Source of the DNA: Solirubrobacter phytolaccae
Lineage (GTDB): Bacteria; Actinomycetota; Thermoleophilia; Solirubrobacterales; Solirubrobacteraceae
Reading direction: 5' to 3'
NCBI RefSeq assembly: GCF_027587195.1
Contig: NZ_JAPDDP010000066.1
Span: 1-44,562 of the forward strand
DNA: 44,562 nucleotides
Position 1 is the first letter of the stretch. Each line of letters starts with the position of its first letter. Position numbers and translations under genes: made by a program. The notes beneath the pieces are model-generated. The model was not told where the DNA came from. It ran no database searches and saw only the letters and a program-made list of their open reading frames with translations. Below are positions 23,848 to 39,649 of this stretch, in pieces.

Positions 23848-23910
23848 CGCGGTCAACTCCTGAGGGGTTGGAAGTTGCCGCGACGGTACGTCCGGCTCGG
23901 GGCCGTCTCA

Positions 23911-23951
23911 GCAGTGACGGACTACTGCAGCTGCGCCGGCGACTACGGCAG
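23911..23951. promoter_or_regulatory. Composite operator A (palindrome CAGTR-N6-TACTG plus third half-site)
   Basis: CAGTG (23912-23916) and TACTG (23923-23927) form a dyad. CTACGGCAG (23943-23951) repeats the half-site CTACTGCAG (23922-23930) 21 bp away, two helical turns. The 41-bp element matches 31 of 41 bases with 28094-28134, in the same orientation to its gene and at the same distance (about 64 bp from start). It lies in the promoter of the large secreted-protein gene. Confidence 0.7.
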
Positions 23952-23964
23952 CCGTGCGGTCGGC

Positions 23965-26565
23965 TTACAGCTGCACGTTGCGCAGATCCCGGCGACCGCT
24001 CACGCCGAGCTTCTGCGACGCGCGGTACAGGTGCGACTCCACCGTGCGGACCGAGACGACGAGGCGCTCCGCGATCTCCGCGTTGCTGAGCCCGCGGGCG
24101 GCGAGCGTCACGTACTCGCGCTCGCGCTCGGTCAGCTCGGCGGTCGCACCGCCCAGCGCGGGCATCGACGGCAGCGGACCGTCCTCGCCCTGGCCGTGGA
24201 GTCCGCGGCAGCGCGCCGCCGCGCGGCGCGCCGAGTCCTGGCGTCCGGCCCGGGCGAACGCCTCGGCCGCGTTGGCCGCCGCCTCGCTCGCGAACCGCAG
24301 CGCGCCAGTCGTCTCGAACGCGTCGGCGACGGCGAGCAGCGCGTCCGCGGCGTCCCCCGCGCGCGCGGCGGCATGGTCGGCGTAGACGCCGACGAGCCGC
24401 GCGTCGCACCGCTCACGCAGCTCCCCCAGCGCGCCGGTCACGTCCCGCGCCGGGACGCCGAGCCGCATCGCCTCGTAGAGGACGCGCGCCGCGTGCACGG
24501 GGCTCGGGGCGAGCTCGTCGGCCAGCTCGAGCAGCGTGGCCCGCGCCCGCCGCACGTCGCCTTCGGCGTACGCCGCCCACGCCTCGGCCCGCACGACGTA
24601 CGGTCGCTGGTGCCCGAGCGGCTCGCCACCGCCGAGGTTCGCCCGCATCCGCGCCAGCGCGGCGAGCGCGGCCGCTTCGCCTTCGACCAGCGCCGCCACA
24701 GAGGTCTGCAGCGCGTTCACGGGCACGAGCAACCCGACGGGGTCGTGCCGCTCCAGCTGCAGCTCGGCCTCCGCGAGCAGCGTCCGCGCGGACCGGTAGC
24801 GCCCGCCGAGATGGTGCAGGATGCCGAGCGTGTACGCCGCCTGGCCCGCGGTCGCGGCGCTGCCCTCGCGCACACCCACCTCGAGCGCACGCGCCATCCA
24901 CGCGGCGAGCGGCGCCCAACTCTCACCGGTCTCGACGAGGATGCGCGACCACAACGACAGCGCAATCGCGTCGCTGAGCTCGTTCACCGGCGGCTCCGGC
25001 CGATGCTGCTCCGCCAGCTGGAGCGCGAGCTGCGTCCGGCCCGCGTAGAACAGGTTCGCGATCTGCGAGGGACGGTCGGCGCCGGCGTGCTGCTCGGCGT
25101 CGCGAACGCCGCCGAGCCGCTCGAAGGACGCGACGCGCAGCCGCAGCGCCTGGACGCTCCGGGTCCACTCGGGGTTGGCCGCGAACCACCCAGTCGCGCG
25201 GTCCAGCAGCGCACGCAGCTCGTCGAGCCGGTTGAGCCCCCAGTGCAGCACCTCGCTCTGCTGCTCGAGGTAGGTGAGCGCCTGCGCCGGCGTCGTGATC
25301 GCCGGCTCCGCCTCCGCGAGCGCGGCGCGCGCGGCATCGAGGTCGTGCGCGTTGAGGTGGGCACGCGCGAGCAGCAACCGCGCGTCGACGCCGCTGTCGC
25401 GTTCAAGGGCCTGAGCCGCGAGCGTCGCGCCCAGCCCGGGGGCGCCCGAGGTGCTCGCGATGCTCGACGCCGACAGCAGCAGCTCCGCGTCCATCGGCTC
25501 GCCCGCGTCCAGCAGCCAGCGCGCGAGCCGCAACGTGTCGGCCGGCGTGCGCCGCGTCCGCGCGCCGACGATCTCCGCGAGCTGCAGCCGTACCGCATGG
25601 GCCTGCACGGCCGGCAGCTGCGCGCGGATGGCTTCGCCGTACAGCGGATGGGCGAGGCGCACGTCGCCGTCGAGCGGGCCGTCCGTGGCGATCAACCCAC
25701 GCGTCTCGGCGGTGCTGAGCGGGTCGGGGCCGGCGAGGCCGAGCAGCTCCCGCAGCCGCAGCGGCTCGCCGAGGGCGAGCAGCTCGAGCACGCGCTGCTG
25801 CCCGCCGTCCAGGTCCGCGAGCCGCTCGCGCACGAGCTCGGCCAGCGAGCCGCTGATCGGCGGGCGCTCCGCGAGTCGCCAGAGCCCGTTCACGTCCGCC
25901 AGCGCGCCGCCGGTCGTCGCGCCCACCACGAGCTCGCGCACGTACATCGCGTTGCCACGGCTCGTCGCGTGGAACCACTCGAGCGCCCCGCGCTCGACCG
26001 GTCCGCCGGCGATCGCCTCGACCAGCTCGTCCGTCGCCGACCGCGACAGCTCGGCCACCTCCACCCGCGGCGCCCCGGCGTCCTTCCAGAGCGAGACGAT
26101 CGCGTCCGGCGCCGGCTCGCCCGTGCGAACGGTGACGACCACGAACGTCGCCGCGGAGGTCGCCAGCCGCAGCACGAGCGCGGCGGAGACCGGGTCGAGC
26201 AGCTGCGCGTCGTCGACGCCGAGCACGAGCGGTCGCCGCCCAGCCCACGCCACGAGCGCGTCGACGCTCTGGCGGAGCAGCTCGAGCAGGTCGTCCGAGC
26301 GCACCTCGCCCGGGATCGCACCGGCGAACGCGCCCAAGGGAAGCGCCGCGGCGCTGCGCGTGGCCTGGACCCAGACCGTCGCCGCGCCCGCCGCCTCCGC
26401 CGCGGCGACGGCCTCCCGCGCGACCCGCGACTTGCCGACGCCGGGCGGCCCGGCCACGACCACGCCGACTTCACCCCGCGCGCGAGCGTCGCTGATCAGC
26501 GTCAGCTCTCGATCGCGGCCGACGATCGGCCACCCGGGGCGCAAGTTGGCGCGCATGCGCGCCAT
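23965..26565 (-). CDS. Large ATP-binding LuxR-family regulator (LAL/MalT-like)
   Basis: An 866-residue signal-transduction protein. An N-terminal AAA/NTPase-like domain has Walker A GPPGVGKS at 39-46 and Walker B PLVLGVDDAQLLD. The middle is a long alpha-helical, TPR-like region. The C-terminal 56 residues (LTEREREYVTLAARGLSNAEIAE, then VVSVRTVESHLYRASQKLGV) are a LuxR helix-turn-helix. Such regulators bind ATP and a ligand to activate transcription. It lies 20 bp downstream of the MFS gene on the same strand and is probably the third-party regulator of the operators at 28094, 23911 and 38266. Start ATG 26565; ATG 26556 is possible. Confidence 0.93.
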   Translation of the reverse strand: MARMRANLRPGWPIVGRDRELTLISDARARGEVGVVVAGPPGVGKSRVAREAVAAAEAAGAATVWVQATRSAAALPLGAFAGAIPGEVRSDDLLELLRQSVDALVAWAGRRPLVLGVDDAQLLDPVSAALVLRLATSAATFVVVTVRTGEPAPDAIVSLWKDAGAPRVEVAELSRSATDELVEAIAGGPVERGALEWFHATSRGNAMYVRELVVGATTGGALADVNGLWRLAERPPISGSLAELVRERLADLDGGQQRVLELLALGEPLRLRELLGLAGPDPLSTAETRGLIATDGPLDGDVRLAHPLYGEAIRAQLPAVQAHAVRLQLAEIVGARTRRTPADTLRLARWLLDAGEPMDAELLLSASSIASTSGAPGLGATLAAQALERDSGVDARLLLARAHLNAHDLDAARAALAEAEPAITTPAQALTYLEQQSEVLHWGLNRLDELRALLDRATGWFAANPEWTRSVQALRLRVASFERLGGVRDAEQHAGADRPSQIANLFYAGRTQLALQLAEQHRPEPPVNELSDAIALSLWSRILVETGESWAPLAAWMARALEVGVREGSAATAGQAAYTLGILHHLGGRYRSARTLLAEAELQLERHDPVGLLVPVNALQTSVAALVEGEAAALAALARMRANLGGGEPLGHQRPYVVRAEAWAAYAEGDVRRARATLLELADELAPSPVHAARVLYEAMRLGVPARDVTGALGELRERCDARLVGVYADHAAARAGDAADALLAVADAFETTGALRFASEAAANAAEAFARAGRQDSARRAAARCRGLHGQGEDGPLPSMPALGGATAELTEREREYVTLAARGLSNAEIAERLVVSVRTVESHLYRASQKLGVSGRRDLRNVQL

Positions 26566-26585
26566 GCTTGCAGACGCGCGTCGGG

Positions 26586-28031
26586 CTACACGACCGCAGC
26601 GGTGGGCAGTGGCGCGGACGCGTCCGACGCCAGTTGCCGCCGCAGCAACGTCCAGGCCGCGCCGGTCGCGGCGAACAGCACGACGGCGGCGACGAGATAG
26701 GCGTCGGCGGTTGCGGTGGTCACGGCCGCCGGCGACGACCGGGCGCCCACGATCGCCCCGAGCACCGCCATGCCGACCGCACCGCCGAGCTGGCGGCTCA
26801 TCTGGCTCACGCCCGACGCCTCCCCGCGCTCCTCGCGTCCCGCCGCCGCCAGCGCGTCCGTGGCCGCCGGCGAGATCGCCAGGCCGAGGGCGACGCCCAC
26901 GCCCACGTAGCCCGGCGCGATCCACCCGAAGCTGTGCGTGTGGAGCATGACCGCGAGCCACAGCAGCGACAGCCCCATCAGCGCGGTCCCTCCCGCGAGC
27001 AGGAGTCGCGGACCGTGACGGTCATAGAGCCGGCCGGCGAGCGGTGCCACGATCAGCAGCGGGACGGTGAGCGGCAGCAGCGACAGGCCCGCGGCGATCG
27101 CGCCGTACCCGAGCACGCTCTGCACCCAGATCGCGCCGAACACCGTCAGCCCGACGAGGGCGAACTGGAGCGCCGCGAGCACCACGTTGTCGACCGCGGT
27201 GTTGCCCTTGCGCCACAGGGCCGGCGACACGAGCGGCTCCGGCACCCGGCGCTCGACCAGCACGAACGCCAGCGTTGCGGCCACCGCCACGACGATGGCG
27301 CCGAGCGTCACGACGCTGCCCCACCCCCACACCTGCGCCTGCATCAGCGCGAGCACGAGCGCGCCGATCGCCGCGACCAGCGAAGCGGCACCGGGCCAGT
27401 CGAAGCGGCCGCCCGAGCGGGTCTCCCCCGCGCCGCCGGCGAGGGCCACGTGCGCGAACGCCAGCGTGAGCGCGCCGACCGGGAGGTTCACGAAGAACAC
27501 CGCGCGCCAGGAGAAGAGCTCGGTCAGCAGCCCGCCTACCAGCGGCCCGAGCGCGAGGAACACCATCGTCGAGCCGGAGTAGATGCCCATCGCCCGCCCG
27601 CGCTCGGACGGCGCGAAGGTGTTGGTGAGGATCGCCCCGGTCGCCGGGACCATCAGCGCCGCCCCGGCGGCCTGCAGGCCGCGCGCGAGCACGAGGCTCG
27701 CGCCGCCCACGGCCAGCGCGCAGAACGCCGAGGCGCCGACGAACAGCGCCACGCCGAGGCGGAACGTGCGGGCCGGCCCGACCAGGTCGCCGAGCCGGCC
27801 ACCGATCACGACGAGCATCGCCAGCACGAGCAGATAGACGTTCACCACCCACTGCGCGCCGACCGGGCTGAGGTCGAGGTCACGCCGCATCGACGGCAGG
27901 GCGACGCTGACCACGGTCTGGTCGATCATGATCATCGACAGCGAGCCCGCCATCGTGGCGAGCACCCACCACCTCCGGTTCGCTTCGGTGATGCCCAACT
28001 TCCGCCGGGTACGGGGCACGGGTCTGGTCAT
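26586..28031 (-). CDS. DHA2-family MFS drug exporter, 14-TM (EmrB/QacA-like)
   Basis: A 481-residue membrane protein. Segment 1 with [17 protein letters not shown] is the DHA2 family signature; [25 protein letters not shown] and a segment-5 [25 protein letters not shown] are also diagnostic. It is probably a proton-coupled exporter of drugs or a metabolite. ATG 28031 has AAAGG 8 bases upstream. It heads an operon with the large LuxR regulator. Composite operator B lies 63 bp upstream, in a spacer shared with the divergent chemoreceptor gene. Confidence 0.94.
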
Positions 28032-28093
28032 TGCGGCGCCTTTCGCGAGCGGGAACGTGGCACGCAGCATCGGCGCGGGCTCGCCCTCCGTCC

Positions 28094-28134
28094 GCAGTAG
28101 CCGGCTACTGCAGGCCCGGCCGCGGCTACGGCAG
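28094..28134. promoter_or_regulatory. Composite operator B (perfect 18-bp palindrome plus third half-site)
   Basis: GCAGTAGCCGGCTACTGC (28094-28111) is a perfect palindrome. CTACGGCAG (28126-28134) repeats the half-site CTACTGCAG 21 bp further on. It lies between the MFS-LuxR operon and the chemoreceptor gene. With operator A (23911) it shares 31 of 41 bases including all three half-sites and spacing. Autoregulation by the LuxR protein is the natural inference. Confidence 0.75.
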
Positions 28135-28258
28135 GCGGGTCCCCCGTTTGGGGGACCCACCTGACACTCGGTTTCACTTCCGCGCCTCGGAGCCGATGAC
28201 CGGTGGCGACCCCGACGCCGCCCCGGCGTCCACCCGAGCCCCAGGAGTTCCCGCCGCA

Positions 28259-30070
28259 ATGCGCCTATCCGTCCGTACGAAGCTCTTCGGCGCCTTCGGC
28301 GTCGTCGTGGCCTTGATGATCGTCCTCGGCGTGAGCTCGCTCGGTCAGCTCGGCAGCCTCAACGACCGCGCCACCACGCTCGCGTCGGACACCCTGCCGA
28401 GCTCGGAGATGATCGGCAGCCTCCGGGCTCGTGCGGCCAACATGGCCCGCATCGAGTCCGCCGCCATCTTCACCGGGGACAAGCTCGCGGACTACACCAA
28501 GGAGGTCGAGACGATCAAGACCGAGGGTCAGCAGATCCTCGATGGCTACGAGGCGACCGTGTCGGACGCCAAGGACCGTGCCGCGTGGGAGAAGGCCAAG
28601 ACCGCCTGGAACGCGTACGTGGCCGCCACGAAGGACATCCTGCCGACGATCGCGCGTGATCCGCGCGCCGCGATTCCGCTCCTGACGGCCTCCGACGCGC
28701 AGTTCAACCAGCTCAACTCGGCGTTGCTGGAATGGTCCGGGTACAACCGCGAGCTCGCGCAGCAGGCCAAGACCGACGCGGCCAACACGTACGCGTCCGC
28801 GCGCACCCTCGTGGTCGTGCTGATGGTGATCGCCGCGCTGATCGCCGCCGCGCTGGCGTTCGTGATCGCGCGCAAGCTCGTCGGCGGCGTGACGCAGATG
28901 CTGCGCGCCGCGGAAGGGATCGCCGAGGGCGACGTGGAGCAGGACGTGCGCATCACCAGCCGTGACGAGCTGGGCGACACGGGCGCGGCCTTCGCGCGCA
29001 TGGTCGACTACCTGAAGGAGATGGCGACCGCCACCGAGCGCGTCGCCGCCGGCGACCTCACCGTCGCGGTCCAGCCGCGCTCGGAGCGCGACCTGCTCGG
29101 CACCGCGCTCAACACGCTCGTGACCGACCTCGGGCACGTCGTGGGCGAGATCACCAAGCAGGCCGAGAGCGTCTCCAGCGCCTCGACCCAGATGGCCTCC
29201 ACCTCCGAGGAGACCGGCCGCGCGGTCGGCGAGATCGCCGCCGCCATCTCCGACGTCGCCCAGGGCGCCGAGCGCCAGGTGCGGATGGTCGAGTCCACGC
29301 GCACCGCCGTGCAGGAAGCCGCGCGCGCCGCCGTCTCCAGCGCCCAGACCGCGGCCGACACCGCCGCGGCGGCCGACGAGGCCCGGGGCGTCGCCCGCGA
29401 CGGCGTCGCCGCCGCCCAGCGCGCCACCGAGGCCATCCGCCAGGTCGCCACCTCGTCCACCGAGATCGGGGACGCGATCGGCGAGCTGTCCACCAAGTCC
29501 GAACGCATCGGCGGGATCGTCGACACGATCACCGCGATCTCCGAGCAGACCAACCTGCTGGCGCTCAACGCGGCCATCGAGGCCGCCCGCGCCGGCGAGC
29601 AGGGCCGCGGCTTCGCCGTCGTCGCCGAGGAAGTGCGCAAGCTCGCCGAGGAGTCCCAGTCCGCCGCGGCGCAGATCTCGGGCCTGATCACCGAGATGCA
29701 GCACGAGACGCACCGCGTCGTCGACGTCGTCTCCGACGGCGCGCGCCGCACCGAAGAGGGCGTCGCGACCGTCGAGGAGACCCGGCTCGCGTTCGAGCAG
29801 ATCGGCGTCGCCGTCGAGGACATGAACGGGCGCGTGACCGCGATCGCCGCCGCCGTCGAGCAGATCGGCGCCGAGGCCAGCCGCGCCGAGCAGGACATCG
29901 TCGACGTCGCGTCCGTCGCCGAGGAGTCCTCGGCGTCCTCCGAGCAGGTGTCGGCCTCCACGCAGGAGACCAGCGCCTCGACCCAGGAGATCGCGGCCTC
30001 GGCCCAGTCGCTGGCCGGCACCGCCGAGGAGCTCAACCGGCTCGTCGGCCGGTTCCAGATCGCCGCGTAG
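28259..30070 (+). CDS. Methyl-accepting chemotaxis protein
   Basis: A 603-residue receptor. It has a transmembrane segment at about 9-30, a four-helix-bundle type extracytoplasmic sensor at about 31-190 and a second segment at about 193-213. A HAMP region follows and then a long coiled-coil signalling domain. The conserved hairpin tip around [20 protein letters not shown] and [16 protein letters not shown] is intact. No che genes are in the window, so it may signal to a distant array. ATG 28259 is preceded by AGGAG at 11 bases; ATG 28196 is an in-frame alternative. It shares its upstream spacer with operator B. Confidence 0.93.
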
Positions 30071-30652
30071 CTATCGCGGGTCGAGGGCGGCGAAGGCCTC
30101 GTCGAGCAGGGCGACGAGGTCCAGCTCGCCGTCCGACGCCGTCCAGCGCTCGATCGCGATCTCCATGCAGTCCAGCGCGGCGGCGGCCTTGACCGACAAG
30201 CCCATCGGCACGTCAGGGCCGGCGCCCGTGCGCGTGGCCATCGCCTCGGCCAGCAGCGGCCGCCAGCCGTGGAAGCGCTCGCTCCGCTTCGAGCGGAGCG
30301 CCGGCGTGTCCATCACGAGCCGGGTGAGCGCCAGGGCCTCGACCGGATCGTCGTGGTAGGGCTCGAACAGCACGTCCACCGCGCGCCGGAGCGCGGCCCA
30401 GTCCGACTCGTCGGCCGGGCGGCTCCGGAGCGCCTGGGCGACCTGCTCCCCCTGGTTGTCCAGGAGGGTCAGGACCGCCTCTTCCTTGTTGCCGAAGTAG
30501 CGCAGGAAGGTGCTGCGCGAGACGCCCGTCGCCTCGGCGAGCTCGGTGACGGTGACGTTGTCGAAGCCCTCGCGCAGGAACAGCTCGACGGCGATCGGAG
30601 CCAGCTGGGCGCGGACCGCGGTGCGCGCGATGTCCCGCGTCGTCTTCCCCAC
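30071..30652 (-). CDS. TetR family regulator
   Basis: A 193-residue protein from GTG. The N-terminal helix-turn-helix is clear: ELFLREGFDNVTVTELAEATGVSRSTFLRYFGNKEE. The C-terminal domain resembles the MftR/TetR_C type with WRPLLAEAM and a helical dimer face. It is the third gene of the MMPL-PAP2-TetR run, 4 bp after the PAP2 stop, and abuts the stop of the convergent chemoreceptor gene. It likely regulates that operon. Confidence 0.93.
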   Translation of the reverse strand: MGKTTRDIARTAVRAQLAPIAVELFLREGFDNVTVTELAEATGVSRSTFLRYFGNKEEAVLTLLDNQGEQVAQALRSRPADESDWAALRRAVDVLFEPYHDDPVEALALTRLVMDTPALRSKRSERFHGWRPLLAEAMATRTGAGPDVPMGLSVKAAAALDCMEIAIERWTASDGELDLVALLDEAFAALDPR

Positions 30653-30656
30653 TGCT

Positions 30657-31382
30657 TCACGATCCTACTGTCGTGGCCTCCCGGAATCCGTGGCGATGCA
30701 GGCGCGGCGGGTGCTGGGCGGTCCACGCGATCACGGCGCCCAGCAGCGTCACGGCGAGCCCGGCGACGACGTCGAACACGAAGTGGTTGCCGGTCGCGAC
30801 GGTCGAGAGCGCGACGAGCGGCCCCCACAGCAGCGCGAGCGCGCGCAGCCAGGGGCGCGTGGTGGCCGCGGCGCCCGCGACGCTGAGCGCGAACGCGAAC
30901 CCGCAGTGCAGGCTCGGCACGGCCGCGATCGGGTTGTAGAACATCGTCGAGTGCCCGGCGAGCGCGACCGCGGACTGCTCGGAGACCCAGTCGGTGAGCC
31001 CCACGCCGGCGAGGCGCGGCGGCGCGACCGGGAACAGCGCGTAGACCACGAGCGCGAGCATCCAGGTGACGATCACGGTGTTGCGCAGCGGCCGGTAGAC
31101 CGCGGGCCGCCAGCGGTAGAAGGCCAGCAGCGCCGCCGGCAGCACGACGATCTGCGCGGCGAGGTACACGTGGCTCAGCAGCCACTCCACCACCGGGGTG
31201 TCGAGCGCGTGCTGGACCGCGCGCTCGACGCCGATGCCGCCCTGGAACTCGACGAGCCAGCGCGCGTTGGAGAGCGCCAGGTCGACGTCGCCGTTCGTCG
31301 CCCACCGGCCCGCGTTGTAGAGCAGGTAGGCGAACGCGAAGAGCGCGAGCTCACGGAGTCCTGGGCGGCGCAGCAGCTGCAT
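30657..31382 (-). CDS. PAP2-superfamily membrane phosphatase/transferase
   Basis: A 241-residue protein with about six membrane segments. The PAP2 motifs VPSLHCGFAF (the PSxH core) and GNHFVFDVVAG (the SxxxH-x3-D-type motif) sit between the last helices, as in inositolphosphotransferase-like (Aur1/Ipt1) and lipid phosphate phosphatases. It may act on lipid phosphates in the envelope. The ATG overlaps the MMPL stop by 1 base (TGATG), and TetR follows after 4 bp, so the three genes are probably one operon. Confidence 0.92.
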   Translation of the reverse strand: MQLLRRPGLRELALFAFAYLLYNAGRWATNGDVDLALSNARWLVEFQGGIGVERAVQHALDTPVVEWLLSHVYLAAQIVVLPAALLAFYRWRPAVYRPLRNTVIVTWMLALVVYALFPVAPPRLAGVGLTDWVSEQSAVALAGHSTMFYNPIAAVPSLHCGFAFALSVAGAAATTRPWLRALALLWGPLVALSTVATGNHFVFDVVAGLAVTLLGAVIAWTAQHPPRLHRHGFREATTVGS

Positions 31383-33598
31383 CACACGACGGCGGGGACG
31401 CGGGTCTCGTGGGGCTCGCGCAGCGCGTCCGGGTGCCCGTCCATCGGCGGGTCCTTCGGGTCGCGGTTGGCGACGAGATGCCCTTCGAGCGAGACGTTCG
31501 GCAGCACCCGGTCCAGCCAGCGCGGCAGCGTCCACGCGCGGTCGCCGAGCAGCTGCACGACCGCCGGGGCGATCACGAGCCGGACGATCAGCACGTCGAC
31601 GAGCACGCCGAGCCCGAGCCCGAGGCCGAACATCTTCGCGGTGACGTCGGGCTGGGTCACGAAGGCCAGGAAGACCGAGCCCATGATCAGCCCCGCGTAG
31701 AGGATCACCTTGCCGATCCGCGAGACGCCGTGGATGACGCTGGCGCGGGACGAGTCGCCCTCGTTGTGCGCCTCGTGGATGCGCGAGAGCAGGAAGACGT
31801 TGTAATCCATGCTCAGCCCGAACAGGATCGCGAACATCATCACCGGGACGAACGAGATGATCGGGACGTCGCTGCCCACGCCCAGCAGGTCGGCGCCGAC
31901 ACCCAGCTGGAAGACCGCGACGACGATGCCGTAGGACGCGGCGATCGAGAGCAGGTTGAAGACGGCCGAGACGAGCGGGATCCAGAGCGAGCGGAACGCC
32001 GCCGTCAGCAGCAGCACCGAGAGCCCGATCACGACGGCGATGAAGATCGGCAGGCCGGCCGCGGTCTTGTCGGAGAAGTCCTGGAAGCCGGCGGTGTTGC
32101 CGCCGACGTAGGCCTTCAGCGGCGTGCCCTCGAGCGCGCCGGGGATCACGCGGTCGCGCAGCGTGTTGACGAGGTCGCTCGTCTTCTCGTCCTGTGGCGC
32201 GGTGGACGGGATCGCCGTGAGCGTCGCGATCTCGCCGTCCTGGCTCGGCGTGGCGGGCGTGGCGGCGACGACGCCGTCGGTGCCGGCGATCGCCGTGCGG
32301 AGCCGTTCGAGCTGCTCTGCCGTCGCGGCGTCGCCCTTCGGCGTGTCCACGGTGATCAGCAGCGGGCCGTTGGTGCCCGGGCCGAAGCCCTTGCTGACCT
32401 GGTCGTAGGCGACGCGCTGGGTCGTGTCCGCCGGCTTGTTGCCGTCGTCGGGCTGGCCGAGCCGCAGCTGCGTGACCGGGAACGCGAGCACGAGCAGGAC
32501 GAGCACGCCGGCGCCGACCGACAGCCACGGGCGCGCGGTGATGATCTCGCCCCAGCGGGCGAACCGCTGCGACGGGGCGACGTGCGCGTAACGCTTGGGC
32601 TTCAGGCGCTTGGAGAACGCGCCGATCAGGATCGGCAGCAGCGTGATCGCCGACAGCACGACGGCGGCGATGCCGATCGCCGCGCCGATGCCCATCTTCC
32701 CGATCAGCGGGATGCCGATCACGAGCAGGCCGGCGATCGCCACCATCACGATCAGCCCGGCCGTGACGACGGCCGAGCCGGAGGTCGCGAGCGCCTTGGC
32801 CGACGCGTCGCGCACGCTGTCCCCCGCCGCGACCTGCTCCCGGAAGCGGCCGATGATCAGCAGCGCGTAGTCGATGCCCGCGCCGAGGCCGAGCATGATC
32901 GCGATCGTCGCGGCGAACGCCGGCAGGCCCAGCGGGCCCGACACGGCGGTCAGCAGCAGCTGGCCGAGGATCACGCCGAGCAGCGCGCCGAACAGCGTCG
33001 CGGCCATCGCCGCCATCGAGCGGAACAGCAGCGTGAGCAGGATGATCGCGATCCCGATGCCGACGAGCTCGCCGACCGGCGCCTCCTGCTCGGAGGCGAG
33101 GTCGACGATCATCCCGCGCGCCGACACGTCCAGGCCCGGCCGCTCCGCCGACTCGACGGCGTCGAGCAGGCGCTCCCCGTCGGCCTTCTCGGCGTCCATC
33201 GGCGGCAGGTCGTACTGGACCGTGGTCTGCGCGATCGTGCCGTCGCGCGAGATCAGCCCTTCGGCGTCGAACGGGCTGACGACGCCGCTGACACCCTCCA
33301 GCTTGGAGATCTTCTGCAGCGCGGTGTCGATCGCGGCGCGGTTCTCGGGGTCGGAGACCTTCCCGCCGGTGGCCGTGAACACGACCTGGGAATCCACGCC
33401 CGCGAGCGCCGGCGTGTGGGCCTTGAGCAGATCCACGGCCGTCTGGGACTCGCTGCCCGGAACCTTGAAATCGTCCGTCGCGGGCTCGCCGTTGGCCGCG
33501 AACCCGCCCAGCACGACGAGGGCGGCGAGAGCCACGACGAGGCTTCGCCGCCATCGGTGGGTGAGCGTGCGCGCCAGCCGCGCGAGGGCATCGGACAT
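31382..33598 (-). CDS. MMPL/RND family transporter
   Basis: A 738-residue membrane protein with two repeats of one N-terminal helix, an extracytoplasmic domain and five helices. GLGAGIDYALLIIGRFRE and GLSMDYNVFLLSRIHEA are the MMPL motifs with the proton-relay aspartate. The ATG at 33598 has AGGAG 9 bases upstream and begins just before the first helix. MMPL proteins export lipids or hydrophobic molecules; pairing with a PAP2 enzyme fits a lipid role. Two TetR genes flank the unit (30071 and 33754). Confidence 0.94.
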   Translation of the reverse strand: MSDALARLARTLTHRWRRSLVVALAALVVLGGFAANGEPATDDFKVPGSESQTAVDLLKAHTPALAGVDSQVVFTATGGKVSDPENRAAIDTALQKISKLEGVSGVVSPFDAEGLISRDGTIAQTTVQYDLPPMDAEKADGERLLDAVESAERPGLDVSARGMIVDLASEQEAPVGELVGIGIAIILLTLLFRSMAAMAATLFGALLGVILGQLLLTAVSGPLGLPAFAATIAIMLGLGAGIDYALLIIGRFREQVAAGDSVRDASAKALATSGSAVVTAGLIVMVAIAGLLVIGIPLIGKMGIGAAIGIAAVVLSAITLLPILIGAFSKRLKPKRYAHVAPSQRFARWGEIITARPWLSVGAGVLVLLVLAFPVTQLRLGQPDDGNKPADTTQRVAYDQVSKGFGPGTNGPLLITVDTPKGDAATAEQLERLRTAIAGTDGVVAATPATPSQDGEIATLTAIPSTAPQDEKTSDLVNTLRDRVIPGALEGTPLKAYVGGNTAGFQDFSDKTAAGLPIFIAVVIGLSVLLLTAAFRSLWIPLVSAVFNLLSIAASYGIVVAVFQLGVGADLLGVGSDVPIISFVPVMMFAILFGLSMDYNVFLLSRIHEAHNEGDSSRASVIHGVSRIGKVILYAGLIMGSVFLAFVTQPDVTAKMFGLGLGLGVLVDVLIVRLVIAPAVVQLLGDRAWTLPRWLDRVLPNVSLEGHLVANRDPKDPPMDGHPDALREPHETRVPAVV

Positions 33599-33642
33599 CG
33601 GAATGACTCCTGTACAAGGGGGAATCGCCGTCCGTGGACGAC

Positions 33643-33674
33643 GCAAGACTTGCATGAATGTAGTGCTTGCAAGT
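33643..33674. promoter_or_regulatory. TTGCAAG-type repeats between mmpL-like and tetR genes
   Basis: GCAAGACTTGC (33643-33653) is a palindrome and CTTGCAAG (33666-33673) is a second. The outer arms ACTTGCA (33648-33654) and TGCAAGT (33668-33674) are 13 bp apart. TTTGCAA and TGCAGAAATGC-type copies continue to about 33712 in an unusually AT-rich stretch. The cluster sits in the divergent MMPL/TetR promoter and probably binds the TetR protein at 33754, or both flanking TetR proteins. Confidence 0.6.
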
Positions 33675-33753
33675 TCGCCTGTCACGTTTTTTTGCAATAG
33701 ATGCAGAAATGCGCCTCTTGCGTATCTGCCATCCGGGCGTCTACGCTTGACGT

Positions 33754-34395
33754 GTGGCCGTGGACACCGAGTCAGAACGAGAGGGACTGCGCGAGCGCAA
33801 GAAGCGCCAGACGCGCGACACGATCGTGCGCACCGCGCTCGAGCTCTTCGATCGCCAGGGCTTCGCCGCCACCACCATCCCGGAGATCGCCGAGGCGGCG
33901 AACGTCTCCCCGCGCACGGTGTCGACCTACTTCCAGGCCAAGGAGGACCTCGTCTTCCCCGGCACCACGGAGATGTTCGAGCGCCTCGAGGCCCTGCTCA
34001 GCGCGCGCGGGCCGGACAAGACGACCGCGGACACGCTCCGCACCTGGTTCGCCGAAGAGGTCCCGCGCCTGGAGTCCGAGCACTTCGTCGTCGCGCGCCG
34101 CGTGATCCAGTCCAGCGAGCACCTGATCGGCTATTCCGGCCGCTTCCGCGCGCGCGGCGAGGAGATCATCGCCCGCTCGATCGCCGAGGACCTGTCCGCC
34201 GACCCCGGCGAGCTCGAGCCCCGCTTGGCCTCCGCCGCGACGCTGGCGATCTTCGGCGTCCTCGATTCCCTTAAGGACAAGCAGGACGACTGCGCGCCGA
34301 CCGATCACACCGCTGCGCTCGGCCTGCTGGACCGCGCGCTGCTGTTCGTCGACGCCGGCATCCGCGCGCTGCGGGACAGCCCGCCCTCGAGTTAG
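33754..34395 (+). CDS. TetR family regulator
   Basis: A 213-residue protein from GTG. The DNA-binding domain is clear: RERKKRQTRDTIVRTALELF, FAATTIPEIAEAANVSPRTV and STYFQAKEDL. The C-terminal helices (EHFVVARRVIQSSEHLIG, RFRARGEEIIARSIAE) follow the MftR-type pattern. It is divergent from the MMPL gene across a 155-bp spacer rich in TTGCAAG repeats. It probably represses the exporter operon and itself. Confidence 0.93.
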   Translation: MAVDTESEREGLRERKKRQTRDTIVRTALELFDRQGFAATTIPEIAEAANVSPRTVSTYFQAKEDLVFPGTTEMFERLEALLSARGPDKTTADTLRTWFAEEVPRLESEHFVVARRVIQSSEHLIGYSGRFRARGEEIIARSIAEDLSADPGELEPRLASAATLAIFGVLDSLKDKQDDCAPTDHTAALGLLDRALLFVDAGIRALRDSPPSS

Positions 34396-34451
34396 GTCCA
34401 GAGGTCCGCTCCGCCCGGCATACTCGCCTCAGCGAGCGGTGAGGGAGTGGG

Positions 34452-34895
34452 GTGCGGGGAGCGAAGGGCAAGTGGCTGGTGATCGTGGTGGTCGCGCTGG
34501 CGGGCGCGGCCGGCGGCGCGTACCTCGGCAACGAGGCCGCCCCCGACGTGACCGGCGTGATCGCCTGCCTCGCGGCTGCCGGGTTCGCGCTCGGCGGCCT
34601 GCTCGGCGTGCTCGTGAGCGGTTGGTGGCGGCCGCCGCCCAAGCCGGCCAAGGCGAGCCCGCCGGCGCCGCCCGCCGCCCCACCCCGGCCTGCTCCGGAA
34701 GCGACGCCCGAACCGGTCGTCGCCGCTCCGGCCGCCCCGGCCGCCCCGCCGCCGGCGCCGGAACCCCCTCCGCCCCCGGAGAACGAGGAGCCGGGCTGGT
34801 ACCCGGACCACACCGGCGCACGGCGCTACTGGGACGGCGAGCGCTGGACCGAGAGCCTGTGGCGCGACCGCGCGCCCCGCACGCGCAAGCGTTAG
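34452..34895 (+). CDS. Membrane protein with C-terminal DUF2510 domain
   Basis: A 147-residue protein from GTG with GAGGGAG upstream. Two membrane segments lie at about 8-26 and 33-57, then a long Pro/Ala-rich linker (about 60-110). A DUF2510 motif PGWYPDHTGARRYWDGERWT follows near residues 113-132. DUF2510 is an actinobacterial domain of unknown function, often on membrane proteins. Its stop overlaps that of the putative anti-sigma gene by 4 bases (convergent). Confidence 0.85.
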   Translation: MRGAKGKWLVIVVVALAGAAGGAYLGNEAAPDVTGVIACLAAAGFALGGLLGVLVSGWWRPPPKPAKASPPAPPAAPPRPAPEATPEPVVAAPAAPAAPPPAPEPPPPPENEEPGWYPDHTGARRYWDGERWTESLWRDRAPRTRKR

Positions 34896-35641
34896 ACCAC
34901 CAGCCGCTTGCGGTGCTCGCGGCCCGTCGGGTCGCGCCAGACGATCTCCTGAAGCCCACGCTGCTGGAACAGCACCGCGTTGTCGACCACGCGCAGCTCG
35001 CTCGTCTTCCCGGTCTTGAGGACGAGCGTCACGCGGTCGATGCCGTCGGGGAACAGCACGAAGTAGATCGGCCCGTCGCGTTCGGTGGTCCGGCTCCAGA
35101 ACGGCCACGCATACGTCGGCAGGCCCGCGGTGCAGCTCGACGTGCCCGAACCCCGCGGGCTCTTGATGGCGTCGCAGAACCCGGTTTTACCGTCCCACAG
35201 CGCAGGCATCACGAAGTGCTCGAGCGCACCGAGGCGGGCGACACGCCGGGCTCGTGACCAGTCCGGTTCGACAAGGACGATCTTCGACCCCGGTGACCGT
35301 GGCGCGTCTTGCTCGAACCGGTCGGACGGTCGCGCGGGCCGCCGCAGCGCGCCGAGCTTGGCCTCGGCCAGCGCACGCGCTTCGGCCATCGATGCCGGGG
35401 GTGTGTTCGGATCGCGCATCACCGGGCTGAACGGGTTCGGCTCCGCGGTCGCGGTCGGGACCGGCGTGGTGACGGCCGGCCGCTCGTCGCGGCCTTCCGG
35501 TCGGCCGGCGATCAGGAGCGCCGCCGCGGCGAGCGCGGCCGCGGGCGCTGTGATCCGCAGCAGCACGCGACGGCGTCGCCGGTGAGAACGCCGCTCGGCG
35601 ACGTCGCGGACGAGCAAGCGCAGCTCCGGGACTTCAGACAT
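34892..35641 (-). CDS. Putative membrane anti-sigma factor
   Basis: A 249-residue protein. A short cytoplasmic N-terminus (about 1-27, Arg-rich) is followed by one membrane segment (about 28-47, TAPAAALAAAALLIAG) and a 200-residue extracytoplasmic domain I do not recognise. It has a Cys pair and ends in a beta-rich segment. It overlaps the ECF sigma gene by 8 bp and is transcribed just after it, the usual place of a cognate anti-sigma factor. No zinc-binding ASD motif (HxxxCxxC) is visible, so the assignment rests on context. Confidence 0.72.
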   Translation of the reverse strand: MSEVPELRLLVRDVAERRSHRRRRRVLLRITAPAAALAAAALLIAGRPEGRDERPAVTTPVPTATAEPNPFSPVMRDPNTPPASMAEARALAEAKLGALRRPARPSDRFEQDAPRSPGSKIVLVEPDWSRARRVARLGALEHFVMPALWDGKTGFCDAIKSPRGSGTSSCTAGLPTYAWPFWSRTTERDGPIYFVLFPDGIDRVTLVLKTGKTSELRVVDNAVLFQQRGLQEIVWRDPTGREHRKRLVV

Positions 35642-36188
35642 CGTCGTGCTCCACGATCGTTCGCAGGGTCAGCAGCCCGCGGCTCACGTGCTTGCGCGCG
35701 ACCAGCGTCGAGCACTGCATCCGCTCCGCGAGCTCGGGATAGCTCAGCTCCTCGATCACGCGCGCACGGATCGCCTCCGCCTCACGTGGGCGCAGATGGG
35801 CGAGCAGCTCTTCGACCGAGCGGCTGCCGAGCCGGTCCACCCGCTCGAGCCGCTCGTCGATCAACTCGAGCCGCCCCGCGCCGAGCTTGCGCCGCGCCCG
35901 TTCCTCGACCTGGCCGCGTTTGATCGAGCGCAACAGCTTGTGGCGCGCGATCCCGATCAGCCACGCCACCGCCGGGCCGTCCTGCGCGCGGTAGCGCCGG
36001 ACCGAGCCGAGCGCGGCGACGAACGTCTCGGCCGCGAGATCGATCGCGACGTCCGACGACGCCGTCCGCTTGCGCAGGTAGCTGAGCACGAGCCGCTCGT
36101 GCCGCAGGTAGAACTGGTCGAACGCCGCCGGCTCCCGTGGCGTGCGGCGCAGCAGCTCTTCGTCGGAGAGTCGGTCGAGGTTCGCCAC
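35634..36188 (-). CDS. ECF-type RNA polymerase sigma factor
   Basis: A 184-residue protein from GTG. Region 2 has FDQFYLRHERLVLSYLRKRT, AIDLAAETFVAAL and VAWLIGIARHKLLRSIKR. Region 4 has LRPREAEAIRARVIEELSYPELAERMQCSTLVARKHVSRGLLTL. It lies 47 bp downstream of the secreted-protein gene, with a hairpin at that stop, and overlaps the putative anti-sigma gene. Control of envelope functions, perhaps including the upstream protease, is inferred. Confidence 0.93.
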   Translation of the reverse strand: MANLDRLSDEELLRRTPREPAAFDQFYLRHERLVLSYLRKRTASSDVAIDLAAETFVAALGSVRRYRAQDGPAVAWLIGIARHKLLRSIKRGQVEERARRKLGAGRLELIDERLERVDRLGSRSVEELLAHLRPREAEAIRARVIEELSYPELAERMQCSTLVARKHVSRGLLTLRTIVEHDDV

Positions 36189-36230
36189 TACTGACCACTT
36201 CTCCGCACCGCTTCAAACGTGACATGCGCG

Positions 36231-36251
36231 CCGCGTCACTTGACGACGCGG
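36231..36251 (-). terminator. Hairpin overlapping the stop of the secreted-protein gene
   Basis: CCGCGTC (36231-36237) and GACGCGG (36245-36251) form a 7-bp stem with a 7-base loop spanning the stop codon at 36236. No T-run follows on the minus strand, so it may be only an attenuator between the secreted-protein gene and the sigma factor gene. Confidence 0.35.
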
Positions 36252-37168
36252 AACATCAGCGGGCACCCATAGTCCCCGCGCAACTCGTTCCCGCGACTGC
36301 GGTAGACCGGCCACACCTCGCTGAAGCCGAGCTTCGACCGGCTCACGCTGAATCGGAATCGGCCATGGCGGTCGGTCCGCACCGTCTTCCACACCTTCGC
36401 GGCGGGCCGCGCCGGCGGCACGCGATACAGACGCACGGGTCGACCGGCCACGGGCGGATCGATAGCCCCGAGGACCGACAGCCGGCGGCCGCGCTTGACC
36501 TCGACCACCCGGAGACCACGGGGATTCCGGAGTTGCGGGGCGAAGCGCATGCCCAGCTGGGCGCCGAGGCGCCCGCTGATCCTGATCGGCCCGGACATCG
36601 CTTCCAGGGGCGACATGGAGGGCTGTCCCGGCAGCGGGCTCAAGCTCGTCTTGAGCGTGAACCGCACCCGGAGATCCATCCCCGCCCAGAGCGGCCGGTC
36701 GGTGACCGAGTACAGGTACCGCACCCGTGACGTGCTCCCGGCCGGCACCAGCAGGTCGCGCTGCTGGTTGTCCACCTCCCACCCGTGGAAGCCACCGGGC
36801 CAGGTCGGGGAACACGAAGGCCGCCCCCGCATGCCCCCGACGCCTCCGGTGAACGCGGCCGGCCCCTCGACCACGGCCGGCGGGCCGGACGCGAACAGCG
36901 GCGTTCCCTCGAGTACCCGCGGCTGCGTTCGACGCGATGCGAACAGGGGCAGCTCAGCGCCCAGGGCGACGCGCTCATCCTGCGCGCCGCCGGTGACGAG
37001 CACGGTGAACGTCAGCAGCTGCCCGTCGGCGCCGCTGCGCACCGTTGAGCGATCGGCGCTGACTTCGATCCGGACCTGGCCTGACGCCCCATCGGCGATC
37101 CAGCCGCTGACCCCGACCGCGACCAGCGCTGCCAGCACACCCCTACGGCACGCGTCCCGGATCAGCAT
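36236..37168 (-). CDS. Secreted hypothetical protein, beta-rich
   Basis: A 310-residue precursor. The signal peptide MLIRDACRRGVLAALVAVGVSGW with ASG before the mature start is evident. The mature part begins VRIEVSADRSTVRSGADGQLLTFTVLVTG, an Ig-like or DUF11-like beta pattern. A C-terminal module (GRPVRLYRVPPARPAAKVWKTVRTDRHGRFRFSV) resembles a carboxypeptidase-regulatory or transthyretin-like repeat. No catalytic motif is visible. Its start overlaps the protease stop by 7 bp, so the two are coupled. Confidence 0.85.
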   Translation of the reverse strand: MLIRDACRRGVLAALVAVGVSGWIADGASGQVRIEVSADRSTVRSGADGQLLTFTVLVTGGAQDERVALGAELPLFASRRTQPRVLEGTPLFASGPPAVVEGPAAFTGGVGGMRGRPSCSPTWPGGFHGWEVDNQQRDLLVPAGSTSRVRYLYSVTDRPLWAGMDLRVRFTLKTSLSPLPGQPSMSPLEAMSGPIRISGRLGAQLGMRFAPQLRNPRGLRVVEVKRGRRLSVLGAIDPPVAGRPVRLYRVPPARPAAKVWKTVRTDRHGRFRFSVSRSKLGFSEVWPVYRSRGNELRGDYGCPLMFRVVK

Positions 37169-38127
37169 CCCCCGGCGGTCACCCCGTACCGGCAGCGCAG
37201 GCCCACGGCGTCGCCATAGCCCAGCGTGCGCCGGAAGATGTCAGCCGTCGCGGTGTGGTGCATCGTCAGGTAGAACGCGTTCACCTCGCCGAGCCCGACG
37301 CTGTGGCCACCCTCGTGCGTCGCGACGCTCTGCACGTCCAACGTGCCGCCGGCTCCGTTGAGGCTCCACGGGGAGGCGTCGTTGAAGCGCATATCCACGT
37401 TGTGGAAGAACACGCCGTCGTACGAGTACCAGATCGTGCAGGCGGCGAAGCCGCTGCTGCAGCCCACGGCGCTCATCGATCCGAAATCGACCACGTTGAC
37501 GCCGTCCGGTGTCATCTGCGGGACCGCGGTCGTCGTCCCGGCGTACACGTGTTGGATCGCCGTCACGTTCCCCCACCCGCAGCTGTTGTACGTGGTGTCC
37601 CAGTTCTGGAGCCCGGCGCCGATCTGGTAGAGGTAGGTCGCAGGCATGTAGCCGCCCTGACGGTTGCGCCACTCGTAGCCACCTCCGCCCGAGCCGTTCA
37701 TGAGCCGCGGACCCACCCACGTGTAGCCACCGGTGCTGCAGCCCGTGTCGGCCTGCTTGAGCTGTCGCTGCGCGGAGGATGCGGCCGGCACGACGCCCTC
37801 CCACTGCACCGCACGTGGCTCGGTCGGCGGCAGGTACCGGGCCGCGGACTCCTCCCGCATCTTCGCCCAACGCGCGGCGGCGCCCGCAAGCTTCGGATCT
37901 TCGAAGGTTCCGGACACGCCGCCGCCGCCGCGTCCGGGCTCAGGGCTGTCGAACCAGCTGATGGGCAGCATCTCGACCTTGCCCTCCGGGCCACGAACCG
38001 GAGCGACCGTCACGCTGCGCTCGAGGTCGCCGTCGGGATCACATCGGGTGACTCTGTACGAGCCTGATTCGTAGTACTCGGTCACCTCGAGCCCGCGGTC
38101 ACGCGACGCGGTGCTGACGCTCATCAT
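37162..38127 (-). CDS. Metzincin-like (matrixin-type) metalloprotease
   Basis: A 321-residue protein. The zinc motif HEGGHSVGLGE and a Met-turn-like segment LTMHHTA, followed by RTLGYGDAVGLRCRYG, match matrixin-like peptidases. The third ligand position carries Glu instead of His or Asp; the codon is GAG. Six or more cysteines suggest disulfides and an extracytoplasmic location. However, no signal peptide follows either of the two adjacent ATG codons, and an in-frame TGA lies two codons upstream, so export is unexplained. It heads the run protease, secreted protein, sigma, anti-sigma. Confidence 0.85.
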   Translation of the reverse strand: MMSVSTASRDRGLEVTEYYESGSYRVTRCDPDGDLERSVTVAPVRGPEGKVEMLPISWFDSPEPGRGGGGVSGTFEDPKLAGAAARWAKMREESAARYLPPTEPRAVQWEGVVPAASSAQRQLKQADTGCSTGGYTWVGPRLMNGSGGGGYEWRNRQGGYMPATYLYQIGAGLQNWDTTYNSCGWGNVTAIQHVYAGTTTAVPQMTPDGVNVVDFGSMSAVGCSSGFAACTIWYSYDGVFFHNVDMRFNDASPWSLNGAGGTLDVQSVATHEGGHSVGLGEVNAFYLTMHHTATADIFRRTLGYGDAVGLRCRYGVTAGGC

Positions 38128-38265
38128 TATTCAACTGTCACTTCGCGCTGGTGAGCGCACAGGGTGTGTAGCGACGGCCCTGATCGGTTTCAAGCATTCA
38201 TGCTGGTGAAGGCAGTCGTATCAGTCAGCCTCGTGACTCGGTCCCCGCGGAGTGCGGCGCACGTT

Positions 38266-38282
38266 GCAGTAGCGGCGTACTG
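38266..38282. promoter_or_regulatory. Third copy of the CAGTA-N6-TACTG palindrome
   Basis: CAGTA (38267-38271) and TACTG (38278-38282) repeat the dyad core of operators A and B; the preceding G at 38266 is also shared. It lies 35 bp before the SGNH hydrolase start, inside a 190-bp spacer. The extra half-site 21 bp away is absent here. It suggests that the same regulator also controls the hydrolase gene. Confidence 0.55.
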
Positions 38283-38317
38283 AGGACACGGGCGGAGCGA
38301 ACCGGGACGCTCCGACC

Positions 38318-39649
38318 ATGAGCTTCTCTGGACTCTTGATCGCGGGCACGCTCGCGCTGACGCTGACGGGACCGGTCCAACCCGCCCCGCGCTACGTCGC
38401 CCTCGGTGACTCGGTCGCGGCCGGCGAAGGCATCGGTGAAGGCTGGACGTGGAACGCCGGCAAGCAGCACTGGGTCGGCGGCAGCACGCCGGGCCGCTGG
38501 GACACGACGTTCCGCCCGGTCCCCTGTCATCAGACGCGGCAGGGCTATCCGTGGGTGGTGGCGGCCCGGCTCGGCGCGGACCTGAAGGACTTCGCCTGCA
38601 CGGGCGCGAGCGGGATCGACGGCATCCTCGGCGTCCAGCCCGACCGTGACCTGGACGGCGCGCAGCTCGGGTGGACGGGTGCCGCTCCGCTGGCCGGGGC
38701 CGCACCGGCGAACCTCGCCTACGACGCGCCGGCACCGCCGTCGCTCGTCTCGCTCACGCTCGGCGCGGACGACGTGGACTTCGCCGGGCTCGTGGGCCGC
38801 TGTTACAAGAAGTACGACGGCGGGTGCAGTCATGCCCCGAGCCGCCTCGACGCGGTTCTGCAGAGACAGAAGGCCAACCTCGCGCACACGCTGCAGGAGA
38901 TCGAACGGCGCGGGGCGGCCGACGGACGCAAGCCGCTCGTGGTCCAGACGACCTACTACGACCCGTTCGGGTCAGACACGAAGTGCGTCGACAACCGTCC
39001 GGAATGGCCGCTCGCCTATCTGAACGCGGCGGACCTCCGCTTCCTCGCCGGCGCGCAGGTGCGGATGAACCAGACGATCATCGACGTCGCGGCCGAGCAC
39101 GGCGCCCTCGTGCTCGACACCGACCCGCTGTTCGCCGACCACCTGTGGTGCTCGCCCGACCCGTGGGTGTACGGGATCTCCATCAAGCGCTCGGACAAGC
39201 ACACGATGGCGCCGTTCCATCCGATGCCCGCGGGCCAGCAGGCGCTCGGCGAGGCGATGGCCACGGTCTTCGCGAGCGCGGCGCCGGTCGACGCCGGCAC
39301 GGACGTGCACGTTCGGGTCGCGCACGGCGCACTGCGGTTCTCCTCGGTCAGCACGCCCGGTGAAGCCGCGATCGTGCCCGCGGCCGACCTGCCCGGCAGC
39401 GTTCCGCCGTCGAGTGGCTTCGTGGTGGGCTCCGCGTACGCCGTCACGACCTCCGCGGACTTCAGCGGCGACGTGACGATCGCGCTGCCGTCCGCTCGTG
39501 CCCAGCAGCTCTTCCAGTACCTCGACGGCGGCTGGCGGCCGGTCCCGTCCGCGTTCGACGGGGGCTTCGTGCGCGGGACGGTGTCGTCGCTCTCGCCCGT
39601 CGCGCTCGGGACGACCTCGCTCAACCCCGCCGGTCGGCGAGCGCGCTGA
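38318..39649 (+). CDS. Secreted SGNH/GDSL-family hydrolase
   Basis: A 443-residue protein. A short signal peptide (MSFSGLLIAGTLALTLTGPVQPA) is followed by block I ALGDSVAAGEG with the nucleophile Ser. Block III is LTLGADDVDF, where the usual GND is GAD. The His block reads FHPMPAGQQALG. Disulfide-type cysteines occur at several positions. It likely hydrolyses an ester outside the cell; related actinobacterial enzymes are lipases or esterases. The C-terminal 110 residues form a beta-rich extra domain. Its promoter carries the third copy of the palindrome. Confidence 0.9.
   Translation: MSFSGLLIAGTLALTLTGPVQPAPRYVALGDSVAAGEGIGEGWTWNAGKQHWVGGSTPGRWDTTFRPVPCHQTRQGYPWVVAARLGADLKDFACTGASGIDGILGVQPDRDLDGAQLGWTGAAPLAGAAPANLAYDAPAPPSLVSLTLGADDVDFAGLVGRCYKKYDGGCSHAPSRLDAVLQRQKANLAHTLQEIERRGAADGRKPLVVQTTYYDPFGSDTKCVDNRPEWPLAYLNAADLRFLAGAQVRMNQTIIDVAAEHGALVLDTDPLFADHLWCSPDPWVYGISIKRSDKHTMAPFHPMPAGQQALGEAMATVFASAAPVDAGTDVHVRVAHGALRFSSVSTPGEAAIVPAADLPGSVPPSSGFVVGSAYAVTTSADFSGDVTIALPSARAQQLFQYLDGGWRPVPSAFDGGFVRGTVSSLSPVALGTTSLNPAGRRAR

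Follow-up and report, generated by a model that had tools for sequence, protein, structure and literature searches.

A putative palindromic operator associated with LAL-type STAND regulators in Solirubrobacter and other Actinomycetota

Three boxed promoters and the genes behind them

We analysed a 44,562-nucleotide stretch of the Solirubrobacter phytolaccae genome (contig NZ_JAPDDP010000066.1, positions 1 to 44,562, hereafter the window), in which three promoters carry the same palindromic box. A first-pass annotation had reported CAGTR-N6-TACTG before a large secreted protein, before an operon of a major facilitator superfamily (MFS) exporter and a large ATP-binding LuxR-type (LAL) regulator, and before an SGNH hydrolase. 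All three copies are present, one base from the starts originally given, and are listed below with their genes. E values refer to a promoter model, R1, applied to the window; the model was built from 30 sites of four Solirubrobacter genomes, namely our own genome (G000), G133, G134 and G135.

23912..23927, minus strand: putative operator palindrome 5' of the large secreted protein; minus-strand sequence CAGTAG-TCCG-TCACTG, with one degenerate half; E = 9.3e-8
23943..23948, minus strand: third (distal) half-site of the secreted-protein promoter, 21 bp from the nearer arm, read from the sequence
23883..23888, minus strand: predicted -10 element TACCGT of the secreted-protein promoter, +24 to +29 from the palindrome
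20449..23856, minus strand: large secreted protein, predicted target; TTG start at 23856, alternatives TTG 23847 and GTG 23811
28095..28110, minus strand: putative operator palindrome 5' of the MFS-LAL operon, perfect CAGTAG-CCGG-CTACTG; E = 1.2e-12
28126..28131, minus strand: third (distal) half-site of the MFS-LAL promoter, 21 bp from the nearer arm, read from the sequence
28066..28071, minus strand: predicted -10 element GATGCT of the MFS-LAL promoter
26586..28031, minus strand: DHA2/EmrB-like MFS exporter, which heads the operon that also contains the LAL; ATG start at 28031
23965..26565, minus strand: LAL/MalT-type STAND LuxR regulator of 866 aa that presumably binds the box
38267..38282, plus strand: putative operator palindrome 5' of the SGNH hydrolase, CAGTAG-CGGC-GTACTG; E = 5.4e-10
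38306..38311, plus strand: predicted -10 element GACGCT of the hydrolase promoter; transcription is predicted to begin on the first base of the ATG, 38318
38318..39649, plus strand: SGNH/GDSL hydrolase, predicted leaderless target; Pfam Lipase_GDSL_2, start at +35

Allowing up to one mismatch, the box gave six strand-matches in the window against 0.81 expected, a number reached in none of 100 shuffles. The finer claims about the first two promoters also stood: blocks 23911-23951 and 28094-28134 agree at 31 of 41 bases, and CTACGG begins exactly 21 bp past the start of CTACTG in both, at 23943 and 28126. The proposed distance of about 64 bp to the start codon was roughly right, with the MFS ATG (28031) 63 bp from its box and a TTG of the secreted-protein gene 55 or 64 bp away on the minus strand. 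That no further copy exists is correct for the window, where R1 gave three matches at E ≤ 1e-7 and no convincing fourth (the next, E = 0.00075, is the 28095 palindrome on the opposite strand, followed by E = 0.0065), but wrong for the genome, which holds 17 more promoter sites at E ≤ 1e-3.

The large secreted protein matched no Pfam or NCBIfam family at E ≤ 0.001, and distant homologues lie immediately 3' of the same box in two other loci (L043 and L171). The top NCBIfam match of the MFS protein was efflux_EmrB (211.1 bits, under the cut-off of 230.2), and 28031 was preferred as its start over the ATG at 28070, which runs into the predicted -10. MFS homologues (E < 1e-120) occur near a box and a LAL gene in another family of the class (L308), elsewhere in our own genome (L090) and in L111, where the box is weak (position weight matrix (PWM) score 12.4). 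The earlier proposal of the LAL as likely regulator is supported, as is its place among its own targets: the LAL gene follows the MFS gene by 20 bp, downstream of the 28095 box. The N-terminus of the hydrolase looks like that of a secreted protein, and the secreted protein, the exporter and the hydrolase could plausibly be induced together.

The window LAL combines an N-terminal P-loop ATPase (Pfam AAA_16, 42.5 bits, cut-off 32.6) with a C-terminal GerE helix-turn-helix at residues 810-861 (49 bits, cut-off 23.5). Its AlphaFold model (mean pLDDT 87.4) places a helical-repeat region, residues 307-793, between the two. Foldseek ranked the STAND-TPR structure 6mfv first (E = 2.4e-10, TM 0.22/0.28) and also returned a maltose-system chain, 8bob_C (E = 9.9e-6), global TM-scores being low in both cases. 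As modelled, with ATPase, TPR-like sensor and GerE domain, the protein is a STAND protein of the LAL/MalT type. An autoinducer-binding (quorum-sensing) LuxR was rejected, as the protein has the AAA domain instead of any autoinducer-binding Pfam domain at E ≤ 0.001. The top NCBIfam match was AbsR2, at 217.7 bits under a cut-off of 850; we take AbsR2 to be SCO6993 of Streptomyces coelicolor.

Our own genome encodes several LAL paralogues, five with the recognition helix RTVESH[LIV]YRA and one with RTVETHVYRS, together with two N-terminal pieces at contig ends and a copy on contig C44 (L089:6888-9299) that stops before the helix-turn-helix, leaving a sensor minus its DNA-binding part. Four paralogues end at or near contig ends (L034:3-1211, L035:18815-19942, L090:7721-9088 and L091:6646-8160); LAL repeats are therefore a probable cause of assembly breaks, which leaves the number of LALs uncertain.

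A genome-wide set of promoters with fixed anatomy

Applied to our own genome, R1 identified 20 promoters at E ≤ 1e-3 on 10 contigs. Sites of the four training genomes match by construction; 15 of the own-genome sites belong to the training set, whereas the other five, like all sites from other genera, lie outside it. The small local regulon first envisaged was rejected in favour of a genome-wide one, accompanied by several LAL paralogues with near-identical helices and by the same box in another class of the phylum. The palindrome CAGTA-N6-TACTG occurred seven times against zero for its reversed control, and CAGTAG-N4-CTACTG with up to one mismatch 12 times against five. None of these 12 palindromes falls inside a called gene, contrary to what background occurrence in coding DNA would produce, although one (L036) overlaps the last six bases of an upstream gene call; genes outside the window were called with a purpose-made gene-finder script trained on these loci. 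Between Solirubrobacter species, homologous genes retain the box, including the AMP-ligase, FAD-oxidase, secreted-protein and membrane-protein families; the box is also kept with homologues of the MFS exporter in other species.

Predicted targets in our own genome include the MFS-LAL operon, SGNH and alpha/beta hydrolases, secreted proteins, an FAD-linked oxidase, a luciferase-like oxidoreductase, a Pls/PosA-family synthetase (over cut-off) and an AMP-ligase gene. The latter is followed by, and probably forms one operon with, LysX (lysyl-tRNA / lysylphosphatidylglycerol synthetase, over cut-off). Our reading is that this set is biased towards envelope and secretion. A family of small membrane proteins with FVPWxLF, which match the VC0807 family weakly and under cut-off, also recurs behind the box near LAL genes (L105:8166-8762, L107, L100, L101, L104, L109, L112, L090 and L308).

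The promoters share a fixed layout: CAGTAG-N4-CTACTG, then nnGAC at +1 to +6, then nAnnnT at +24 to +29, with offsets counted from the base after the palindrome. The last two can be read as -35 and -10 elements with 17-bp spacing, which would put the palindrome at about -51 to -36. When own-genome and congeneric sites were aligned toward their genes, A+25 and T+29 were present in 21 of 21 and G+3 in 20, and the -10 began with G in 15, unlike TAnnnT. Because these sites had been oriented by their genes, A+25 and T+29 were retested on exact CAGTA-N6-TACTG palindromes from the fetched loci, chosen regardless of the -10 and with either side counted. The pair was found on one side of 7/7 own-genome, 7/8 congeneric and 10/13 other-genus palindromes of the family, and of 18/24 from more distant Actinomycetota (L190-L252, described below); at other offsets the means were 0.2-0.8 and the maxima 2, 2, 3 and 6, respectively. 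Among the misses, the congeneric one lies in coding DNA and the three from other genera lie in genomes without a LAL at E ≤ 1e-60. GAC at +3 to +5 was seen in 6/7, 4/8 and 7/13 of the three family sets.

Start codons fell at +35 to +37, the expected transcription start, in 26 of 53 target promoters; 25 had longer leaders and two fitted neither class. A Shine-Dalgarno-like motif preceded the gene in 18/25 of the longer-leader promoters versus 9/26 of the leaderless ones, and a distal GTA 19-20 bases upstream, equivalent to a third half-site 21-22 bp away, was present in 24/53. The 53 are 54 minus one weak opposite-strand match (L039, plus strand, gene 1 kb off); L044 and L045 (from G134, duplicates of G133) were excluded from these counts and kept among the 55 PWM matches given below. 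Called starts at +24 (MFS) and +27 (L036) were discarded for overlapping the -10, in favour of in-frame starts at +63 and +36, the latter agreeing with a homologue in L042. Very short, leaderless-looking open reading frames (68-75 aa) with 'LPxxYxxALRL' stand right behind the box beside LAL genes, both in the window's taxonomic family and in Mycobacterium (L116:8064, L083:834, L223:12633 and L217:12659).

A PWM scan of 751 kb of loci gave 55 matches scoring at least 14, all of which the script placed outside called genes, while a Markov control gave zero matches at 10 or above and one at 8 or above. As these loci had been picked for sites or LALs, the whole-genome result is the fairer one.

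Co-occurrence of box and LAL from the genus to the phylum

The expectation that the motif would track orthologues of the LuxR gene was borne out in the genus, in the family and, through the recognition helix, in the outgroup. Among Solirubrobacter genomes, a LAL (E ≤ 1e-20) was present in G000, G133, G134 and G135, which at E ≤ 1e-3 had 20, 8, 8 and 7 sites, respectively (G133 and G134 share a strain number, look like a single strain and do not count as independent), and both LAL and sites were absent at these thresholds from G136-G138. In the family, for which 146 genomes were compared, 12/15 with a LAL (E ≤ 1e-60) had a site at E ≤ 1e-3 versus 2/131 without (Fisher p = 3e-13), and the bare exact palindrome occurred in 11/15 versus 10/131 (p = 3e-8), values that overstate independence because LALs and sites both cluster on the phylogeny. 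In the other three LAL genomes a site stands next to the LAL but is weaker, below threshold (G068, E = 0.0011; G058, PWM 12.4; G120, PWM 19.9). Of 299 genomes from the class, seven had a site at E ≤ 3e-4 and only one of these (G391) lies outside the family; its site adjoins an MFS homologue and a LAL cut by the contig end.

To look beyond the order, 77 of 184 candidate loci were taken, of which 63 (L190-L252, 1.20 Mb) come from organisms that are not Solirubrobacterales or Solirubrobacter relatives. These 63 contained 24 exact palindromes, compared with a mean of 0.54 and a maximum of 5 for 59 permuted palindromes and two for the reversed control; 15 were at most 1.5 kb from a LAL match (0.34 Mb) and nine farther away (0.86 Mb). 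Related LALs of Mycobacterium, Mycolicibacter and Actinomycetospora have the box next to them. For the 62 outgroup LALs whose reading frames were long, a box with up to one mismatch lay within 3 kb of 25/43 with the helix RTVES[HY]xYRA, tallied on whole reading frames, versus 0/19 of the others (p = 8e-6). On a tree of 81 LALs the box label needed 16 changes versus 26.9 in shuffles, with 0/500 as low. In whole-genome R1 searches of seven outgroup genomes, matches were sparse and less strong (the best at E = 1.5e-7 for Actinomycetospora and 1.6e-4 to 0.025 in six mycobacteria); R1 was trained on Solirubrobacter and is therefore no measure of regulon size in these genomes.

Mycobacterial sites often carry GACGAT at the -10 position. 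In Mycobacterium the box also precedes genes at L227:14046 and L224:3591, whose N-termini look to us like those of PE-family proteins. Two Pseudonocardia loci (L219:14708 and L237:14707) have a variant box, GCGTAG-N4-CTACGC, near LALs with the helix RTVEGHVYRAC, a possible case of helix-operator covariation. GAGTAG-N4-CTACTC boxes occur in an Actinomycetospora locus (L304:5951-5966 and 11306-11321), in which an IniR-like LAL with the helix RTVDNVLH lies beside iniBAC-like genes, and from these the outer box base may change with the helix.

Interpretation and relation to known systems

The promoter anatomy, the genome-wide distribution, the co-occurrence and adjacency of box and LAL, and the correlation with the recognition helix are direct observations. 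We interpret the three window sites as operators of activator-dependent promoters, probably (at a probability of about 0.82) bound by the LAL/MalT-type STAND family that includes the protein encoded at 23965-26565, with class-II activation. The palindrome, its centre near -43.5, would abut a weak -35 that stands 17 bp from a weak -10, a geometry that fits class-II activation of the housekeeping RNA polymerase. An inducer would bind the TPR-like sensor of the LAL, upon which the protein would open at its ATPase domain and assemble through it into a multimer whose GerE domains would occupy palindrome and third half-site cooperatively; many of the resulting mRNAs would be leaderless. Binding itself, activation rather than repression, the transcription starts and which paralogue acts where are what we infer from sequence.

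Besides the phylogenetic clustering given above, several observations weigh against this interpretation. Weak sites occur in G002 and G112, in which no LAL was detected, and G136, which lacks a LAL as well as any promoter match at E ≤ 1e-3, has one exact palindrome. Conversely, three own-genome LAL loci (the C77 pair, C44 and C133) had no promoter match in the fetched stretches, and 18/43 outgroup LALs with the helix RTVES[HY]xYRA had no box within 3 kb. The -35 element fails outside the family, GAC at +3 to +5 being present in 5/24 palindromes of L190-L252 and at other offsets in up to nine. The box, with up to two mismatches allowed, was also missing from four mycobacterial iniBAC loci and is therefore not general to all LAL-like regulators.

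The box could instead be the operator of a different, unlinked transcription factor, with LAL genes only frequent members of its regulon. Sites on own-genome contigs where the LAL search found no homologue (C114, C12, C147, C169, C112 and C125) and LALs without a site would fit such a factor, but it is the LAL that turns up next to the box time and again, within the family as well as beyond it (other co-occurring regulators were not systematically searched), and box presence follows the LAL recognition helix, which makes this explanation improbable. We consider it about as improbable that the LAL is a repressor which blocks these promoters by occupying their -35 region. Repression would suit the AbsR2 match, SCO6993 being a repressor in the available text of PMC9628970, but the -10 and -35 are weak, as in activator-dependent promoters, and the box takes the position of that of the activating Actinoplanes MalT, as far as the accessible part of PMC7567727 describes it.

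The elements might also form an alternative sigma factor promoter with the palindrome as part of its -35, as the frequent G at the start of the -10 could suggest. This is very unlikely: the palindrome has symmetrical halves and lies 23 bp from the -10, a gap too wide for a -35, and within the family there is a separate nnGAC at 17-bp spacing, often with a third half-site further up. Chance matches or a dispersed repeat have next to no probability. The loosest pattern, CAGTR-N6-YACTG, did occur eight times in our own genome against seven for its reversed control, which is a weak point, in that the short degenerate pattern by itself does not reach significance across the genome; significance comes from the tighter form, the position and the adjoining promoter elements. 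Similarity is limited to the promoter elements, the genes behind fall into many unrelated clusters, the spacing to the -10 and to the start is fixed, and the arrangement recurs across species. On the A+25/T+29 spacing test, a repeat or chance origin was rejected.

More tentatively, and at somewhat less than even odds, several paralogous STAND sensors in one cell may converge on one promoter code that runs a phylum-wide, partly envelope-directed and largely leaderless programme (LysX operon, Pls/PosA synthetase, exporter and secreted proteins), with an equivalent network in mycobacteria. If so, these sensors would resemble a bank of pattern-recognition receptors wired to one output. The findings also raise the question of how paralogous sensors that share a DNA-binding helix avoid mixing their signals. 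Many LAL/STAND regulators occur in Actinomycetota, and to our knowledge few of them have a defined operator. From sequence, a single operator with a single promoter geometry can now be assigned to a LAL clade spanning Solirubrobacter to Mycobacterium, yielding testable targets, start sites and start codons.

The open-access literature searched contained no paper with the literal box forms and, judged by titles, none on such a Solirubrobacter LuxR regulon. Like the window LAL, SCO6993 belongs to the LAL family; it is a 606-aa repressor that binds palindromes and its own promoter, and the available text states that its binding consensus could not be predicted and gives footprints that do not resemble the Solirubrobacter box (PMC9628970). 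IniR (Rv0339c / MMAR_0612), the mycobacterial envelope-stress STAND activator of iniBAC, is likewise actinobacterial and joins an ATPase, a MalT domain-III-like sensor and a LuxR-like C-terminus, according to the accessible part of PMC5760070. Unlike the window LAL, the presumed IniR genes of three mycobacterial iniBAC loci (assigned by position and size) have the helix AKTVEHHV. With this different helix and no box with up to two mismatches in four such loci (L300-L303), IniR was rejected as the same system. The region upstream of iniB was read in L302 and L303, without a box, and GTA-N6-TAC was searched for and not found in L300-L301, which are weaker negatives, L300 being cut by a contig end and iniB not called in either. 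Three copies of CCCCTAA(T/C), with start-to-start spacings of 17 and 15 bp, lie upstream of iniB (L302:8490-8710 and L303:8660-9090) and are a candidate box for IniR itself.

E. coli MalT offers a parallel in its STAND architecture and in a multimer that binds several boxes cooperatively, one overlapping the -35 (PMC4381067, in part), features that our system would share; it differs in its maltotriose inducer (same source) and in its box, GGA(T/G)GA, as quoted in PMC7567727 and PMC9628970. The MalT regulon of Actinoplanes sp. SE50/110 is also similar, as described in the available sections of PMC7567727. There a MalT-like LuxR regulator (ACSP50_3915), an activator by deletion and overexpression, acts through a hexamer palindrome that overlaps the -35 and lies 34.4 ± 1.0 nt from mapped transcription start sites, compared with about 35 here as predicted from the -10 position and the starts at +35 to +37, and many poorly annotated membrane and enzyme genes are among the targets. 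The Actinoplanes box, TCATCC-5nt-GGATGA, differs from CAGTAG-4nt-CTACTG, so ours is not a MalT box, and the Actinoplanes targets described sit in one large region, in contrast to the dispersed sites and several helix-sharing LAL paralogues of Solirubrobacter (PMC7567727). Overall, the kind of system is already known, and the putative operator and the predicted multi-paralogue regulon are new.

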